This document shows, one piece after another, positions 5,258-17,229 of a DNA stretch of 39,166 bases. The position numbers and the translations under genes are program-made. The notes under the pieces are model-generated. The model was not told where the DNA came from, did not search any database, and worked only from the letters and a program-made list of their open reading frames with translations. The stretch comes from Methanococcoides sp. (GTDB taxonomy: Archaea > Halobacteriota > Methanosarcinia > Methanosarcinales > Methanosarcinaceae), in NCBI GenBank assembly GCA_021108185.1, contig JAIORJ010000034.1, forward strand, positions 1-39,166. Direction: 5' to 3'. The number at the start of each line of letters is the position of its first letter. Positions within the stretch are counted from its first letter, which is position 1.

Positions 5258-7489
5258 ATGGAAAAAGAATTTGAAACTATATTTAATTCCGTAAACGATG
5301 GAATTCTTATCTATAGCCTTAAAGGACGTTTTTTGGAAGCAAACAGGATTATGTGTGATGATTTGGGATATCAAAAGGATGAATTACTACAAATGACGGC
5401 AATGGACATAACGCCTCCTGAATTTAGAGAAACAATACATGAACAAGTTGTTGGAGTATTGAATCGGGGAGGTGGAATTGTCGAAACCATGAGCAGATGT
5501 AAAGATGGTTCTTTGGTACCAATTGAACTTAATATTCGCCCAATCGAATACAAAGGAACTCCTGCCATTCTAGCCGTTGCCAGAAATATAACCGAGCGCA
5601 AGCAGATGGAAGAAGCTCTACGTAAGAGTGAGGCAAGTTTGTCCAATGCCCAGCGTATTGCTAATCTTGGTAATTGGGATTGGGACATCGCCAACAATGA
5701 GCTGTACTGGTCAGATGAGATCTATCGTATCTTTGGGGTGGAACCCAAGGAATTCGGGGCTACGTATGAGGCGTTTCTAAATTCCATCCACCCTGATGAC
5801 AGAATGTTTGTTCTGGAACATGTAAATAAGGCAATATCTGAAAATAAAACGTATAGTATTGACCACCGCATTCTTTTGCCCGATGGCTCAGAACGCATTG
5901 TTCATGAGCAGGCCGAAGTTACGTTTAACGAAACCGGTCAGGCCATTCGAATGGTTGGCACTGTGCAGGACATCACTAAGCGGAAGCAGGCAGAGGATGC
6001 TTTGCAAAAATCTGAAGAAAAATATCGTAATTTGACTGAAAGTTTTAATGAGTTAATCTACCGTGCAGACCCCGAAACGCTTGTGGCAACATACGTGAAC
6101 CAACCTGTCGAAAGAATCTATGGTCATACAGTGGAAGAGTGGCTTAATACTCCAAATTTGTGGGAGCAGACAATTTATCCTGACGACAGGGAAAGAGTGT
6201 TTGCAGAATTCACCGAATTACAAACAAAACTGGAAAGTGGCATTGTAGAATACCGTATTATAAAGAAAGACAAAACCATACGATGGGTGCAAGATCACGT
6301 CAGTTGGGAGAAAGATCAACAAGGCAAACCAATTTCGATGAATGGGATAATTTATGACATCAGCGAAAGTAGGGAAGCAGATAAGCTATTGAGGCAAAGT
6401 GAAGAGAAATTCAGAACAATATTTGAAAGCGCGAATGATGCAATCTATTTAACTAACCTTAATGGTCAATTCCTAGAAGTTAATCGGGTGGCTTGCGATC
6501 GGCTGGGATACAGCCGAAGTGAACTTCTTCAGATGGGGCCAAAGGATATCGATTCTTTTGATGATGCAGCACAGGTAGAGGATCGAATCAATCAGATGCT
6601 TCAACATGGGCATCTCCTCTTCGAGACTGTTACTGTTCGAAAAGATGGTTCTACGATTCCGGTTGAGGTTAATATTCGACTTATTGATTATATGGGGGGA
6701 AAGGCTATTTTGGGCATCTCACGAGACATCACCAAACACAAGCAAGCAGTAGAAGCAATGCTACAAGCAAAAATGCTGGCAGAGGATGCAAATAGAACCA
6801 AATCCGAATTTATAATGAACATGAGCCATGAGCTAAGAACTCCTCTTAATTCGATCATTGGTTTTACGGATGTGATTTGCAGTGAGAACTTTGGTGCCTT
6901 GAATGAATATCAGAAGAAATACACATCTACTGTTCTTAGAAATGGAAAGAATCTTTTGAATATCATCAACGACATCATATCCATCTCAAACATCGAAACC
7001 GGAAAGATGAAACTTCATATTAATGAATTCTTTGTATCCGATGCTATTGATGAAGTAGAAGCATTGATGATACCTATTGCATCACAGAAGAATATTGACC
7101 TGACATGTAACATCGACATTGAAACACCTACCATAAAAGCAGACACAAAAAAATTCAAGCAGATTCTTTACAACCTTGTGAGCAACGCCATTAAGTTCAC
7201 GGGTCAAGGTGGATCAGTGACAATCGGAGGGAAAATATCAGAGGACCTTGTGCATATTTCTGTAAAGGACAGTGGCATCGGCATTTCACCAGAGGATTAG
7301 AATAAACTGTTCACCCCTTTCTTTCAGGCAGATTCTTCAACTACCAGAGAGTATGGGGGTACCGGTCTTGGCCTTGCACTTATCAAGAAATTTGTTGAAA
7401 TGCACAGTGGGAAAATCTGGGTCGAAAGTGAAGTTGGAAAAGGAAGTATCTTCACGTTCGCAATTCCTATGGAGGGCAAAGTGCAATAA
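5258..7489 (+). CDS. Four-PAS sensor histidine kinase with one in-frame UAG
   Basis: A soluble multi-PAS sensor kinase. Four PAS/PAC modules lie at about residues 1-118, 130-248, 255-372 and 380-498; the first and fourth are close copies. The HisKA domain follows, with phospho-acceptor H524 in [17 protein letters not shown]. The HATPase has N639/N643 (N box) and D671 (G1, [10 protein letters not shown]). Codon 681 (7298-7300) is UAG. The same frame then continues for 62 residues with the missing end of the ATPase domain, [13 protein letters not shown] and the G2 box GGTGLGLAL, to TAA at 7487. Relatives usually have Q, M or L at the UAG site. Either UAG is translated (pyrrolysine or suppression) or the gene is a recent nonsense pseudogene; a 680-residue product would lack the G2 box and be inactive. 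The strong GAGGGG ribosome-binding site fixes ATG 5258. Confidence 0.85.
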
Positions 7490-10505: not shown

Positions 10506-11930
10506 TCAATCTGTTATCGCAACATCCATGTCATTTCTGGTAATGTGCAGGTAAGTGATCGCTCCTGGTCTTCCATCGTAATTGATCGTTATTTTTGATG
10601 TCTCATAATCCACAGGGTCTTGCTTCCCACCATCAATATAGAATATGATAGCTCCGTCCTTAGTGATAAGTTTCATATAATGTTGTGTGAGGTCGTTCAT
10701 CGAGAATGAAACATTGCCACTATTTATCTCAACATCAGGAAGTTCACTTATGGGGCCGTAAGGACCCCATGAAAAGTCCGGATCTGCATTTGTGTTAGGT
10801 GGATCATACCTCATCATGAATGTAGGATCCAGAAAATCTACAGTGGCATATTGGTCTGCCTTACTATCGCTTACCGGGTAAGTGGTAACCCCTTCCCATT
10901 CTTCGATATAGTCAGCTCCAGCTGCTGTATCCTTATAAGTTACATGGACTTGAAGCTGATTTGCACCACCTTTTTTTGCAAGGTTATATGTGAGCGTCCT
11001 TGTACCGGATGTTGCTCCTATCTCATATTTTGCGGGGTTCAATCCATTATTATTGGAATTCTCTGCTTCAAGATAAAATGAAAAATCATATATTGGCAAT
11101 GGGTTTGATGCATTCACTGCACCGAACTTTATCATGTCGTTAAGTGGCGATGTTCCCATTGGGGGCATGACATCGAGTTCGATGATCGCGGTCGTGTTCT
11201 CGTGGTCGAGAGTTGCAGTTGTGTAGATCATTGTATCAGCATAATCTGCCCAGGCGTCATAATACTGGCTCTTGATGTAGATATATACTTTATCTGAATT
11301 AATGGGATTTTTCCTTGAAGGTGATATTGAACTGTTAGGAAATAGTATGGAAGGTTTGTTGTCCGATGAAACTGAAATACTGGTGTCGCCGTTGCCGGAT
11401 GATGATGATCTGCCAGTGATGGACATTATTGGAAGTGTAAGTGTTTCTCCATTGTAATGGAACTCGGGTGGTGAGACCATAACTGATCCTCCGCTACCTT
11501 CATGTTTAGACCATACTCCTCCACCTTCATATGCTATCTTTTGGTTATCTTTTGTATATTCTATTGTACCAAAAGAGCAGTTGAAATCCTCTGATGCGCC
11601 CGGGTTCGTTAGATTGGTAATGACAATTCGAATGTTGCTTTTATCATCCCCAGTACCATCGTTCACGTTAATACTTCCGCCTATGAGTGAAACTGATGTT
11701 GTCTGAAGGGGTGACTCCCCAAGGGCAACTTTACTGGTACGAGAGTCCAGGATTGTGAAACCCTGTTCTATTTTCTGTGCCTGTGCATCATCCTGTAGGT
11801 CGGAGATCATAGGTACACTGTAAACAAGCATTGCACTTATTGAAGCGATAGTGAGTGCGAACATAAGCAGTACTCCGATAACGGCTGATTCAGCACAGTT
11901 GCATTCATATATCTTCCTGTTTTTCTCCAC
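10506..11930 (-). CDS. Archaeal pilin-like membrane-anchored protein (DUF7289-type)
   Basis: A 474-residue protein with a type IV pilin-like N-terminus: a short polar head (MEKNRKIYECNCAE), then a hydrophobic helix (SAVIGVLLMFALTIASISAM). The remainder is a large Ser/Thr/Asn-rich, beta-predicted extracellular domain. It resembles the haloarchaeal DUF7289 group as I recall it. GTG 11930 follows the ribosome-binding site AGGAG. It is a longer paralogue of the next gene upstream: GVWSKHEGSGGSVMVSPPEF matches GVWAKYENGGTVMVKEPEF there. Last gene of the pilin-like operon; it probably contributes to a surface filament or its assembly platform. Confidence 0.7.
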   Translation of the reverse strand: MEKNRKIYECNCAESAVIGVLLMFALTIASISAMLVYSVPMISDLQDDAQAQKIEQGFTILDSRTSKVALGESPLQTTSVSLIGGSINVNDGTGDDKSNIRIVITNLTNPGASEDFNCSFGTIEYTKDNQKIAYEGGGVWSKHEGSGGSVMVSPPEFHYNGETLTLPIMSITGRSSSSGNGDTSISVSSDNKPSILFPNSSISPSRKNPINSDKVYIYIKSQYYDAWADYADTMIYTTATLDHENTTAIIELDVMPPMGTSPLNDMIKFGAVNASNPLPIYDFSFYLEAENSNNNGLNPAKYEIGATSGTRTLTYNLAKKGGANQLQVHVTYKDTAAGADYIEEWEGVTTYPVSDSKADQYATVDFLDPTFMMRYDPPNTNADPDFSWGPYGPISELPDVEINSGNVSFSMNDLTQHYMKLITKDGAIIFYIDGGKQDPVDYETSKITINYDGRPGAITYLHITRNDMDVAITD

Positions 11931-11942
11931 CCTTTCTCCTCC

Positions 11943-12725
11943 TTATTCGATTCTGACACTCAGGGGTGAATACAGAATATAGACATCAATGTTCTCCAAA
12001 TAATCATCTTTTCGTACTTGGATAGTATTGTTGTTCTCATCCCTGCTTATGATTTTCATTCCAAAAGTATCATCAAGATATTTTTCCCATCCCTCGTAGT
12101 ACTGGCTCATTATTGTGATATCTACCGCGGAAACATTTGTGTACTTATATACTGATGATTCTCCACCATCCGCAACTGCACGCACAAGTCCCTTTCCGGC
12201 CTGACCGCTAACTCCTGTGATCGTGCTGGAAGGTATGAACAGCGTGTTATCAGAGAACACAAATTCCGGCTCTTTTACCATCACAGTTCCACCGTTTTCA
12301 TATTTGGCCCAGACTCCTGTATTCTCATAGGAAATAAGAGTCCCTTCATACTCATTCTGTATTTCCCTTGTCTGATGCTAAAATGTCTGTGATTCGATAG
12401 CCGGAGGCAGGAGCGACGAGTTCCATGTTTGAACGGTTATGTTGATGACACTATCTCCGGTAACCCATATTCCCCCTCCATACATTTTCAGTTCTACTGA
12501 TTGGGAAGGTGCAGTGCCAAAAACGACTTTGTTCATGTTCTCTGAAAGAACGATATAGCTTTGTTTTATGTTCTCTGTGTGACCATTCTCTTGCATGTTC
12601 TGAAGCAATGGATATCCTGAGGTTCCAATTAGGGATATTGCAATGAACATTATGCCTAGTATGAACACTACGTCGATGACCTCTGACACTGCATTTTCTG
12701 AATTGGACAGCCTTTTTGGTATCAT
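11943..12725 (-). CDS. Pilin-like protein (DUF7289-type) with one in-frame UAG
   Basis: The reading frame from ATG 12725 runs 115 codons to a UAG at 12380-12378. It then continues without further stops for 144 codons to TAA at 11943. Both halves align in order with the neighbouring paralogue: a pilin-like hydrophobic N-terminus (AVSEVIDVVFILGIMFIAIS), the VVFGTAPSQSVELKMYGGGI segment, and, after the UAG, YEGTLISYENTGVWAKYENG and a beta-rich domain. A single amber codon therefore interrupts an otherwise intact 260-codon gene. Translation of UAG as pyrrolysine or by suppression, or a recent nonsense mutation, are the options. It lies between two intact operon partners with short gaps of 12 and 21 bp. 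Confidence 0.8.
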
Positions 12726-12746
12726 TGTTTCAGTACCTTTTTTTCT

Positions 12747-13220
12747 TCAGTATATCTCGATCACATTCGAGGTACTATTGTAAAGTAGGAAATGGTCGCC
12801 TGAAGCACTACTCAATGTTGTGGACATTATGTTAGTATTTTCAATGTCGAAAGCAACCTGCACTCTTGTTTCAGAACGTTCATTGGACTCGAATATGATC
12901 TCACGGGTCTGGTTCGAGAATTCAACATAATAATATTCATTTGCGATCCGTATTGGTATCATGAGTTCTGACCTATGATCAATGATCTCTCCACCGCCGT
13001 TGTTCACTAAACCTACCATTGTGTCGATCTTTGTAAGTTGAAGTGCGATATTGTTTCCATGTATCTCAAATTCTTCGCGCATGACCGTATGTTCTGCCTG
13101 GTCCATTAGACCATATGAGGATTGCATGACAAGTATGAATGTAATAATTGTTATTACAAATGTAAGTATGAATCCAATTGACGTTGATACTGCTTTACTG
13201 TCTGTATATAACTGCTTCAT
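12747..13220 (-). CDS. Pilin-like protein (DUF7266-type)
   Basis: A 157-residue protein with a short basic head (MKQLYTDSKA), a hydrophobic N-terminal helix (VSTSIGFILTFVITIITFIL) and a beta-rich exterior domain. The S-T-S-I-G-F start of the helix and the motif NNGGGEIIDHRSELMIPI resemble the haloarchaeal DUF7266 group found in pilin clusters; this rests on pattern memory. It begins 10 bp after the preceding gene and is followed closely by the UAG-containing gene. It is expected to sit in the membrane as a minor pilin or pseudopilin. Confidence 0.65.
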   Translation of the reverse strand: MKQLYTDSKAVSTSIGFILTFVITIITFILVMQSSYGLMDQAEHTVMREEFEIHGNNIALQLTKIDTMVGLVNNGGGEIIDHRSELMIPIRIANEYYYVEFSNQTREIIFESNERSETRVQVAFDIENTNIMSTTLSSASGDHFLLYNSTSNVIEIY

Positions 13221-13230
13221 TTTTCACACT

Positions 13231-14070
13231 TCAGGGTACGGTAATTGGAAGGGATACATTGATCATGTTCTTGCTGGATGCGATGCTGATCGTTGTATTG
13301 ATCACTTTATACCTTTCACGGGAAAAATCACGTCCATCGGACAGAGTTCCGGTGATCGAATACAGACCCATGGCATTGCTTGAATTGAAATAATCTATCC
13401 TGTAGGTCTCACTTGCAGTTGATGTGGCAAAATGGAAATCTTTTGGAGTGTTATTTATTATGTTGAGGTAAATACTGCTATTGGATGTTCCTATTGTGTG
13501 TGTCTGATCGTCCACGGATACATTTATGTTACTACCATCATCGTATAGCTTCATTTTCCAGATTGGAACACCGGATTGGTTTATGGCATGTATTTCAAAG
13601 GGATCCGACAAGTTTGAAAGTTTGCTTGTATCTCCCATCTCTATTGTAAATTTGTTTGTATGGTCAATGTTATCTATGATCGTCCAGTTCGATCTTCCTG
13701 TAATTAATCCATTTTTTGTAAAGTATGCATCATTAAGGGTACTGTTTCCAAGGGAAAATGAAAAACCTCGATAAGCATAAAGGGTTGAGATCTCCTGGCT
13801 ATAAGTTTCAAGATAATTGAAATAAACATCATTCTCAAATTGGTTGCCAGTTGTAGCGTTATAATAGGCAGCATTTGATGCGTCTTGCGTGATCTGTGCA
13901 ATGTTCGATATCTCGAAATGGTTTATGTCGTTGCTTGATTCAGATGCCATATTGCTTGCATATATTATGTTGTTCAACATCACTGTTGATATTACTATCA
14001 TGAAACCTATTGCAAAGGCTGCAAGTAACAATATTTGTCCGGATTCATCGCAATGTTTCATCTTTTTCAT
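13231..14070 (-). CDS. Pilin-like protein (DUF7261-type)
   Basis: About 279 residues. A short polar head (MKKMKHCDESGQ) leads into a hydrophobic helix (ILLLAAFAIGFMIVISTVML) and then a Ser/Asn-rich extracellular region. The G-Q-I-L-L-L-A-A-F-A start resembles DUF7261-like proteins of haloarchaeal pilin loci. I prefer ATG 14070, or possibly 14061 with GGGATG as ribosome-binding site, over an upstream ATG at 14115. The longer version adds a cysteine-containing leader and overlaps the previous gene by 32 bp. The domain rich in NATTGN-type sequons may be N-glycosylated. Confidence 0.65.
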   Translation of the reverse strand: MKKMKHCDESGQILLLAAFAIGFMIVISTVMLNNIIYASNMASESSNDINHFEISNIAQITQDASNAAYYNATTGNQFENDVYFNYLETYSQEISTLYAYRGFSFSLGNSTLNDAYFTKNGLITGRSNWTIIDNIDHTNKFTIEMGDTSKLSNLSDPFEIHAINQSGVPIWKMKLYDDGSNINVSVDDQTHTIGTSNSSIYLNIINNTPKDFHFATSTASETYRIDYFNSSNAMGLYSITGTLSDGRDFSRERYKVINTTISIASSKNMINVSLPITVP

Positions 14071-14083
14071 CCCGTTTCGTTTT

Positions 14084-14698
14084 TCACATACGCCACATGG
14101 TAAGCTTAACATCAATTATGTTATAGTAATCAGTTGAACTATCCACGTCAGATATGCCGGTATCTGATGCAAAGGTGACAGCATCATCTATGTCTGTATT
14201 GGAGATCAGTACTTTTCTCGAAATTATCACTGCATTGTCGGACGGATCACCATTATAAATGAAATGCACTGTCTGGCTTGATCCTGTTTCGGTATTGAAA
14301 GTGAACTCTATATTGTGTGCAATTCCATTTTCGATCACTACGAGTTCGAGCATTTCTTTTAAAGGACCGGTCAAAATATCACTGCTATTTGTTCTGGAAC
14401 GATAATTTGTCGCAGTCCAAACGTATTCATCGCCATTCCAATCGATGATCTGATCTTTCAGGTATGAATTCGTTCCATACGCTGAGTGGTCAAGAACTGT
14501 TAACATGTCCTGCCCGATGGTGTGTATCTGTGATTCGATGTGAGCATTTGCAGTAGAAGATGTAAGTGGAGTAAGGGCAGTTGCTTGTACGGCAAATACG
14601 AGTACTGCGATCATTATGGTGGCGGCCATGATAGCTTCAAGGGTATGCATTTGGCCTTGTTCATCTTCCTTTATGTCGGGACCTTTACTGTGTCTCAC
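14084..14698 (-). CDS. Pilin-like protein (DUF7288-type)
   Basis: About 204 residues. The polar head ends in EDEQGQMHTLEAIM and continues as a hydrophobic helix (AATIMIAVLVFAVQATALTP). This agrees with the DUF7288 pattern G-Q-x-H-T-L-E-A remembered from haloarchaeal pilin clusters. The long possible start at 14818 overlaps the upstream gene by 119 bp. The GTG at 14698, one base after the upstream TAA and preceded by GGGTGTGG, is more economical; ATG 14728 is an alternative. The exterior domain is beta-rich and follows the common layout of the cluster. Confidence 0.65.
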   Translation of the reverse strand: MRHSKGPDIKEDEQGQMHTLEAIMAATIMIAVLVFAVQATALTPLTSSTANAHIESQIHTIGQDMLTVLDHSAYGTNSYLKDQIIDWNGDEYVWTATNYRSRTNSSDILTGPLKEMLELVVIENGIAHNIEFTFNTETGSSQTVHFIYNGDPSDNAVIISRKVLISNTDIDDAVTFASDTGISDVDSSTDYYNIIDVKLTMWRM

Positions 14699-14699
14699 C

Positions 14700-15260
14700 T
14701 TACCACACCCGCACTGAAAGGATTGCATTTTCTCTTTTACTGGATCCGATATCTTCAAGAAGGACAACTCTTTTGGTCTGTCCAATATTTCCGGTAGTTG
14801 GTAATGGTTTGCCAGCAATATGCATCAGAGATGTGCTATTAGCCATGGTTATGTTGAGCTCATAGCTTTGGAACCCTCCTCTCAATCCCAGATCTGATAC
14901 TGTATCTTCATAATCATATGTTAAAGAATAGAATAATGTGTCAGTATTGTTCTGGTCTACGAGATTCGGGGTGTTGATATCTCCGGAAGCTAATTCTATT
15001 TCTGTTATCGACGTTGCAACGCGATCTGCTACGAGTGTGACTTCATCTGAATCTGATTGGAAGGGGGTGAAAAGACCAGAGGTGTATTGGAAAACAAAAA
15101 AGACAGCAAACAGGAATATGGTAATTGCTATCAGATAATCAATAGTTATCTGAGCCCTGTCTGTTCTCAGGTGTTTATTATCTGATCGTTTGAATGGTCT
15201 TTCATTTATCCGGTCTGTGTGTTCAATACGATCTACGGTAATCGGTTGATCATATCCCAT
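14700..15260 (-). CDS. Pilin-like protein (DUF7287-type)
   Basis: A 186-residue protein with a long charged head (about 35 residues). It is followed by R-A-Q-I-T-I-D-Y and a hydrophobic helix (LIAITIFLFAVFFVFQYTSG), the layout of DUF7287-like archaeal pilins. The exterior domain is 120 residues, ending in LSVRVW. The ATG at 15260 overlaps the end of the ArlD/E-like gene by 11 bp, so translation is probably coupled. The long cytoplasmic head is unusual for a pilin and might contact the coiled-coil protein encoded just before it. Confidence 0.65.
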   Translation of the reverse strand: MGYDQPITVDRIEHTDRINERPFKRSDNKHLRTDRAQITIDYLIAITIFLFAVFFVFQYTSGLFTPFQSDSDEVTLVADRVATSITEIELASGDINTPNLVDQNNTDTLFYSLTYDYEDTVSDLGLRGGFQSYELNITMANSTSLMHIAGKPLPTTGNIGQTKRVVLLEDIGSSKRENAILSVRVW

Positions 15261-17229
15261 ATATCTCTGTACCCTTTATCACTTTTTTGATGTCCTTATC
15301 TATAATAGAGAGCCTGTTCTTATCTACCTTAAGACCTACAAGCTGTTCAATGAACCAGATGGATCTCACATGGTCATCAGGGGCGAGCTTCCAATCGGAT
15401 TTTTCAATATAGTAATCGATCCCTTCTGCATACCTGAGAAGTTCAATGCGTATATCTTCGCTTATCCATCCCAGCTCTTCATAGTAGGAAAGAATGTCTG
15501 AAAGGTGATTACATCCCACGAGTTCCATAAGGAATTCCAGCCATTCCATACATAGTTTCATATTTGTGGAATTTTTAATAATGGAGTTCAGCTGAACATT
15601 TCCTCCGTTACCTTTGTAGCTTCTGGCTCCGATCCCTTTTAATTCATTTTCTACATGATCAGTTAGTTCTTCCAGCTGATTTTTTAAAAGTTCATTATGT
15701 TCATCGGTATCAGTTTTGAACTCTTTGTTTGTATTGTGTGCCTTTTCTAAGCCCTTGATAAGGTCAGAAGCCACGTTTCTTAACTCTTGCACACTTTTTT
15801 GTGATTCACTTTGTATCTGGGTAAGTGATGTTAGGGACTCTTCCATTTTGTCGATGCGGTCGTTCGTTGCAAATATTTCTGCAGATCTTGAATTACCGAA
15901 TTCTGTTATTTTCTGTATCTGGGAGAGTATTATTGTATGTGAGCTTGTAAGTTCGGCAATGTTCTCTTCAATGGAGGAAAGTCCGGTCTTAAGTTCGCTA
16001 TTATCAGCGTGAATATTTTGCAGAGTATCTTCTAGTTCACTCAATCGTTCTTCGATCATGTTGATGTGACCTGTTGATCTATCTATCTTGACATTAATAC
16101 TGGAATTGGTGTCTCCACTCTCATTTTGGATGACGTTTAGTGATCTTTTCAGTTCCTCAATAGTTCCGGAAAGTTCATCGATGTTAGTAATAATATCCTC
16201 TTGAGAATGCTTTGAATCAGCAAGTTCATTTTTTATTTCTTCCATTTCTTCTGAAGAAACATCTGGAGCTGGACTTTCCATTATATCGATGGGTATTTCG
16301 AACTCATCAAGGTTTATGTTTGGATTTGTAGTGTTGTTCTCTACTGGCACTACTGTTCTTATATCTTCCAAAGGAACATTTTCAGTGATGGGAGTGGGAT
16401 GATATATCTTGGTCTCAGAACCTATGTTCTTAGGATCTTCTTTTGGGAATGTGGGATCTGTTTCCTTTCCATTTACATTTCCAGACGCAATAGGCTGTAG
16501 TTCTTCCATTCTGTCAATCAATTTTCTCTTTTGAGTGATCCTTTTCAATGTATTTGTGATTGAAAATAAGAATCCTTTCTCTTTTTTGTCGGGCATCGGG
16601 TGTGATGCTTCTTGAGCAGAGTTATTAATTGGTGGGAATGGAGGTTTACTTGTTCCGGCAGGTGTATCACTAAAAGGAGAGTTTTTATGAGGATCGAATG
16701 TCGAGTGATCACTACTATTCTCAACGAACGGCGGTGTATCAGTGTAAGGAATGTATGGTTCAAATAGTGGTAAAGGTGTTTCTTTTACCTTTGTTTTGTC
16801 TTCGGTGGTGGATATTCTGTTGGGAATGTCCATTGTTTCCTGGCTTTCCTCTACGGGCCTTTCAGGTGCAGTGGCTTTGATCCCATCAACGACCGCTATA
16901 TTCGATACAGTCCCCTCTACTGGATCGATGTGATCATCATCATTTTCAAAGGATGTGATGGCGGTTCTATTATCATCTTCATCGGTGGAATTTGATGTCA
17001 TCTTTGGGAGAAATGCCGGATGTACGGTTATTTCCGGTTTGTTATCTGGATCATTTGTTTCTCCGGAGGATCTGATGGTATTTGCAAAAATATCAGGGGT
17101 AACTTCAGACTCCATATCAGCAGATAGGTCATTCTTCATTTCAGATTCCCAAGGTAGCTCGGGCTCAGGTGAATGCTCATTAGAGAAATTTGCATTTTCT
17201 TTTTTATTTTCCCAGGGTAGTTCATTCAT
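15250..17229 (-). CDS. Coiled-coil protein with C-terminal ArlD/E (FlaD/E) domain
   Basis: A 659-residue soluble protein in three parts. Residues 1-240 are a Pro/Glu/Ser/Thr-rich, probably disordered acidic region that starts with a repeated motif (ELPWENK, ELPWESE). About 330-520 is a long coiled coil (EERLSELEDTLQNIHADNSE and similar). The C-terminal 120 residues (MKLCMEWLEFLMELVGCNHL, YYEELGWISEDIRIELLRYA) match the archaellum accessory domain ArlD/E. In archaella this family forms part of the cytoplasmic ring under the motor. As first gene of the pilin-like operon it probably plays a comparable scaffold role for a non-archaellum filament. Its promoter lies in 17230-17330, and its ATG lacks an obvious ribosome-binding site. 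Confidence 0.8.
   Translation of the reverse strand: MNELPWENKKENANFSNEHSPEPELPWESEMKNDLSADMESEVTPDIFANTIRSSGETNDPDNKPEITVHPAFLPKMTSNSTDEDDNRTAITSFENDDDHIDPVEGTVSNIAVVDGIKATAPERPVEESQETMDIPNRISTTEDKTKVKETPLPLFEPYIPYTDTPPFVENSSDHSTFDPHKNSPFSDTPAGTSKPPFPPINNSAQEASHPMPDKKEKGFLFSITNTLKRITQKRKLIDRMEELQPIASGNVNGKETDPTFPKEDPKNIGSETKIYHPTPITENVPLEDIRTVVPVENNTTNPNINLDEFEIPIDIMESPAPDVSSEEMEEIKNELADSKHSQEDIITNIDELSGTIEELKRSLNVIQNESGDTNSSINVKIDRSTGHINMIEERLSELEDTLQNIHADNSELKTGLSSIEENIAELTSSHTIILSQIQKITEFGNSRSAEIFATNDRIDKMEESLTSLTQIQSESQKSVQELRNVASDLIKGLEKAHNTNKEFKTDTDEHNELLKNQLEELTDHVENELKGIGARSYKGNGGNVQLNSIIKNSTNMKLCMEWLEFLMELVGCNHLSDILSYYEELGWISEDIRIELLRYAEGIDYYIEKSDWKLAPDDHVRSIWFIEQLVGLKVDKNRLSIIDKDIKKVIKGTEIYGI

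Follow-up and report, generated by a model that had tools for sequence, protein, structure and literature searches.

We confirmed that a pilin-like gene of Methanococcoides sp. carries a genuine in-frame UAG codon within the window, the stretch of 39,166 nucleotides analysed here. The gene probably encodes one 260-residue protein with pyrrolysine (Pyl) at UAG codon 116, in a genome in which UAG is essentially a sense codon and in which this particular UAG is neutral and lineage-specific. We directly observed an intact reading frame, orthologues devoid of stops, a set of pyl genes and the rarity of TAG as a stop, and we infer insertion of Pyl at codon 116 from the sequence.

A pilin-like gene with a single internal UAG

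The gene is encoded on the minus strand, from 12725 to 11943; its strand was absent from the original prediction. When TAG is read as a residue, the gene forms a single frame of 260 codons that starts with ATG and ends with TAA. Its only TAG is located at codon 116 (12380-12378), and neither another stop nor a frameshift was found, exactly as first proposed. Codons 1-115 (12381-12725) form the N-terminal half, with a predicted anchor helix at residues 10-33, while codons 117-260 and the terminal TAA (11943-12377), delimited by frame and orthologue alignment, form the C-terminal half. Under translation table 11 the gene is split into two ORFs, as anticipated: the first (12378-12725) encodes 115 aa including the N-terminal hydrophobic helix, and the second (11943-12284) encodes 113 aa from a GTG codon and lacks an anchor.

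The 260-codon product matched DUF7289 (PF23960) with 83.1 bits (gathering cut-off 27) over residues 12-222, a span that crosses the TAG. The match to Pilin_N (PF07790) scored below its cut-off (16.8 vs 25.2 bits) and was found at the expected place, residues 11-56. The neighbouring gene at 10506-11930 (minus strand, 474 aa, Pfam match to DUF7289 and DUF7308) is an uninterrupted paralogue that shares 33% identity with the pilin-like protein over query residues 12-236. The alignment is colinear, so that the claim of colinearity with an intact neighbour past the UAG also stood. A DUF7289 paralogue from another genus of the family (L167, G034) contains a single TAG at codon 105 of a 472-codon frame, which gives this protein family a further, independent UAG.

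The predicted structure of the pilin-like protein has low confidence (mean pLDDT 60.5) and assigns residue 116 to a predicted strand that spans 109-126. A fold search with this structure returned no significant match, and no claim is drawn from it.

Both genes belong to a cluster (10506-17229) that is a putative pilin-like surface system, judging from its predicted products, all encoded on the minus strand. The head of the cluster encodes a coiled-coil protein with an archaellum FlaD/E domain (PF04659, 15250-17229, 90.8 bits). It is followed by genes for a DUF7287 protein (14700-15260, 121.5 bits), a DUF7288 protein (14084-14818, 156.5 bits), a weak DUF7261-like protein scoring below cut-off (13231-14115) and a DUF7266 pilin-like protein (12747-13220, 31.6 bits vs a cut-off of 27.6).

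Orthologues carry sense codons at codon 116

Alignment of orthologues at this codon, which the original prediction had put forward as a check, revealed only sense codons in relatives. The orthologues of M. seepicolus LLY (G007) and M. alaskense DSM 17273 (G001) show 95% identity, are uninterrupted, and carry TCG and CAG, respectively, where the window genome (G000) has TAG. Six remoter Methanococcoides orthologues encode D, Y, D, D, L and T at this position, with indels nearby. All eight full-length Methanococcoides orthologues are free of interruption, and in two of the 11 genomes of the genus the orthologue is either missing or represented only by a distant relative. Conservation of UAG, as expected of a functional Pyl site, was not found among pilin orthologues. 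Scattered stops elsewhere in the gene, which the original prediction had considered as counterevidence, were likewise not encountered, the G000 copy being the only one with a stop among the approximately 70 full-length family orthologues listed. Because coding-like sequence flanks the TAG on both sides and the 95%-identical orthologues cross the codon without an indel, the pilin TAG is not a chance occurrence.

A single base change separates TAG from CAG and likewise from TCG. The sites shared within the window among G000, M. seepicolus and M. alaskense (673, 625 and 459) gave no clear order of the species, and TAG at codon 116 may be ancestral or derived.

A recent nonsense mutation, leaving a young pseudogene from which only the 115-residue fragment is made, would account for a TAG that is unique to G000, all the more as CAG to TAG is a single transition. 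Furthermore, loss of the gene appears tolerable given its absence or divergence in two members of the genus, and a very recent lesion would leave few traces. However, we found no second lesion, and the changes unique to G000 after the TAG were mostly synonymous (8 synonymous, 4 non-synonymous), no worse than in relatives. The use of TAG in the rest of the genome also bears on this explanation.

TAG is nearly absent from gene ends and recurs inside genes

The genome contains a complete pylTSBCD cluster, in which the genes for tRNA-Pyl (anticodon CUA), pylS (434 bits), pylB, pylC and pylD are contiguous, together with one normal-looking aRF1. ORFs of at least 200 aa in 1.196 Mb (n = 733) ended with TGA in 375 cases, TAA in 347 and TAG in only 11; over all frames, TAG represents 18% of stop triplets. 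Moreover, the majority of these 11 TAG-ended ORFs correspond to internal stops of longer proteins, among which are MttB, two PAS histidine kinases, an S-layer/PKD protein and a HAD hydrolase. The shorter ORFs include a GNAT that likewise has an internal TAG. The S-layer/PKD protein (L057:6067-8871, plus strand, 935 codons), with its in-frame TAG near codon 913, is a second surface-type UAG protein of the same genome. MtmB was considered as a positive control; its full-length homologue (L130, contig C44) lacks a TAG, and MttB was used instead. Other MtmB matches in the assembly were short, and two of these lay at the end of a contig.

We then compared the ends of orthologues between G000 and 0.8 Mb of M. 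alaskense (320 pairs). In 307 pairs the two genes share their end position, the stop being TAA or TGA in each species and TAG in none. The only TAG shared by the two genomes in these pairs is the internal one of MttB.

In addition, we searched for stops with in-frame coding signal on both sides, using a codon-usage filter since the unfiltered open-frame version was swamped by antisense frames. This analysis recovered 6 TAG, 47 TAA and 29 TGA sites in G000, and 9, 38 and 12, respectively, in M. alaskense. At TAG sites, the codon in the other species was a sense codon (mostly CAG) or TAG (MttB), never another stop. At TAA and TGA sites, the partner in every aligned orthologue but one (38% identity) was again a stop, because one gene ends there and the next begins.

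When orthologues were compared at sites flanked on both sides by coding signal, internal stops amounted to about 8 TAG versus 1 TAA and 1 TGA, for mutational opportunities of about 0.39-0.47, 0.30-0.39 and 0.22, respectively. A TAG was also observed at codon 366 of the DNA polymerase II (D) small subunit gene of M. alaskense (C3:39379-41005, minus strand), where G000 has CAG; the family was assigned on the G000 orthologue. Both the imbalance among internal stops and the occurrence of TAG in a close relative's replicative polymerase subunit argue against a nonsense mutation in the pilin-like gene, an explanation that we consider improbable.

The pylB gene (L030:8907-9968, minus strand) has an apparent TAG end followed by 42 open codons that overlap pylC. 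The pylB gene of M. burtonii likewise ends at TAG (PMC2933860), and such an end appears in the literature for M. burtonii, M. mazei and M. acetivorans. Feedback by Pyl supply is a possible explanation, and UAG may retain its stop function in at least one gene, pylB. Altogether, the TAG usage data are hard to reconcile with UAG acting as a normal stop, and depletion of TAG stops alone does not prove insertion of Pyl.

Pyrrolysine as the likely residue at codon 116

With Pyl as the favored residue, tRNA-Pyl(CUA) and PylS would insert it at UAG codon 116 to produce the 260-residue protein. A special insertion signal would be unnecessary because UAG is essentially a sense codon in this genome, where almost no gene relies on a UAG stop. 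A stable RNA structure 3' of the pilin UAG was looked for and not found (z = 0.03), and current thinking attributes the insertion of Pyl to competition with the release factor, with no mRNA element required (PMC9499178). The full-length form would probably be the main product. The single aRF1 presumably still terminates some translation at UAG, and some truncated 115-residue product is to be expected since UAG is not exclusively sense, as pylB indicates, and the one aRF1 looks normal. In M. acetivorans, readthrough of a UAG reporter was only 20-30% (PMC2933860). Because the site varies in relatives and the gene is dispensable, UAG 116 itself is best read as neutral and specific to this lineage; it lies in a variable stretch and probably encodes a residue without function.

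The suggestion that this pilin contains pyrrolysine thus held in part. The pylTSBCD cluster, the near absence of TAG as a terminator, the sense codons of orthologues and the constraint downstream of the UAG point to Pyl as the most likely residue. Its presentation as something special was not supported, given that the site is variable, that many unrelated genes of the genus contain TAG and that the S-layer/PKD protein also has an in-frame TAG. Among the papers searched, none linked pyrrolysine with archaeal pilins. A functional role for pyrrolysine in the pilin is unsupported.

Methylamine-dependent regulation of the pilin is equally unsupported. If the amount of full-length pilin were set by Pyl supply, the surface structure would track the growth substrate. 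Pyl supply can in principle limit the reading of UAG, and for Sifarchaeia it has been hypothesized that Pyl synthesis is active only with methylamines (PMC9499178). However, the pilin UAG is not conserved in any relative, no folding signal follows it, and many other UAG genes would be affected too, which makes such a switch very unlikely. Finally, a sequencing or assembly error at this single base of a fragmented genome (230 contigs) is just as improbable here, and it is unlikely as a general explanation because in-frame TAGs recur in many other genes of G000 and its relatives, some at conserved positions.

A conserved UAG in a subfamily of histidine kinases

The window contains a further gene with an in-frame TAG, encoding a PAS-HisKA-HATPase sensor kinase of 743 codons (5258-7489, plus strand). 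Its TAG (7298-7300) is replaced by CAG in a 98%-identical copy in G008 and also in M. seepicolus. This kinase stretch falls outside the segments alignable with M. seepicolus and M. alaskense at the DNA level, a pattern suggestive of an insertion specific to this lineage.

Using this kinase as a query against the genus, we found many kinases that contain one TAG. The members of one subfamily have it at an identical HATPase_c codon, within the context ...FTPENG(C/S)(I/V)-O-(I/V/L)... (in G000, C2:16448-16473 and C55:7049-7074; also L148-L166). A profile of this subfamily retrieved 20 members across all 11 Methanococcoides genomes with scores of 469-499 bits, every one with one TAG, and the next match, at 354 bits, had none. 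The profile was built from TAG members, and a gap of more than 100 bits is not explicable by one position. Mean amino-acid identity in the subfamily is 73%, and TAG is among the 9 invariant columns of the 238 fully occupied codon columns. Such an invariant column would look like the outcome of selection keeping UAG, or like a frozen codon with harmful neighbours. Furthermore, a DNA pattern scan of 112 genomes of the family found the exact kinase motif only in Methanococcoides, with one one-mismatch match carrying TAG in another genus (G025).

The kinase-subfamily UAG is a stronger and more striking case than that of the pilin, and may be the newer result. Taken together with the pilin, it raises the tentative possibility, on which we place less than even weight, that UAG means Pyl throughout the proteome of Methanococcoides, drifting neutrally in genes like the pilin while serving as a conserved functional Pyl in the ATP-binding domain of the kinase subfamily.

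Comparison with known pyrrolysine systems

The archaeal 'Pyl code', in which all TAG codons are reportedly read as pyrrolysine, is said to have been described by Kivenson et al. in Science in 2025. The genome studied here resembles it in that TAG is nearly cleared from gene ends and present inside many genes, and differs in that pylB still seems to end in TAG.

A neutral Pyl is also known from the tRNA-His guanylyltransferase Thg1 of Methanosarcina acetivorans (Heinemann et al. 2009, according to the summary in PMC2933860). Like the pilin, Thg1 is an unrelated protein whose single in-frame UAG is specific to one lineage, translatable as Pyl and not essential. The pilin differs in being a pilin-like, surface-type protein of another genus, described here at the sequence level. 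MtmB, MtbB and MttB also have an in-frame UAG in genomes with pyl genes (seen here for MttB, and for MtbB and MttB in M. alaskense); their UAG is conserved and catalytic, whereas that of the pilin is variable and without known role. Because neutral Pyl in Thg1 and the reported genome-wide Pyl code precede it, the pilin UAG is an additional case of a known phenomenon.

For the kinases, a histidine-kinase iORF of cluster 16 (M. acetivorans, M. mahii and M. barkeri) was predicted to contain an in-frame UAG (PMC3639795). Both this cluster and the Methanococcoides subfamily consist of histidine kinases with an in-frame UAG; the former belongs to other genera.

At the sequence level, these observations trace the conversion of UAG into an ordinary codon: TAG first disappears from gene ends and afterwards comes and goes by drift at non-essential positions, as in the pilin, where three sister species have CAG, TAG and TCG, and it even enters a replicative polymerase subunit. 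Standard annotation truncates or splits all such UAG genes. With the conserved UAG of the kinases, the use of Pyl beyond methyl transfer becomes directly testable, and if this reading is true, the kinase subfamily would represent a conserved functional Pyl outside the methylamine methyltransferases.
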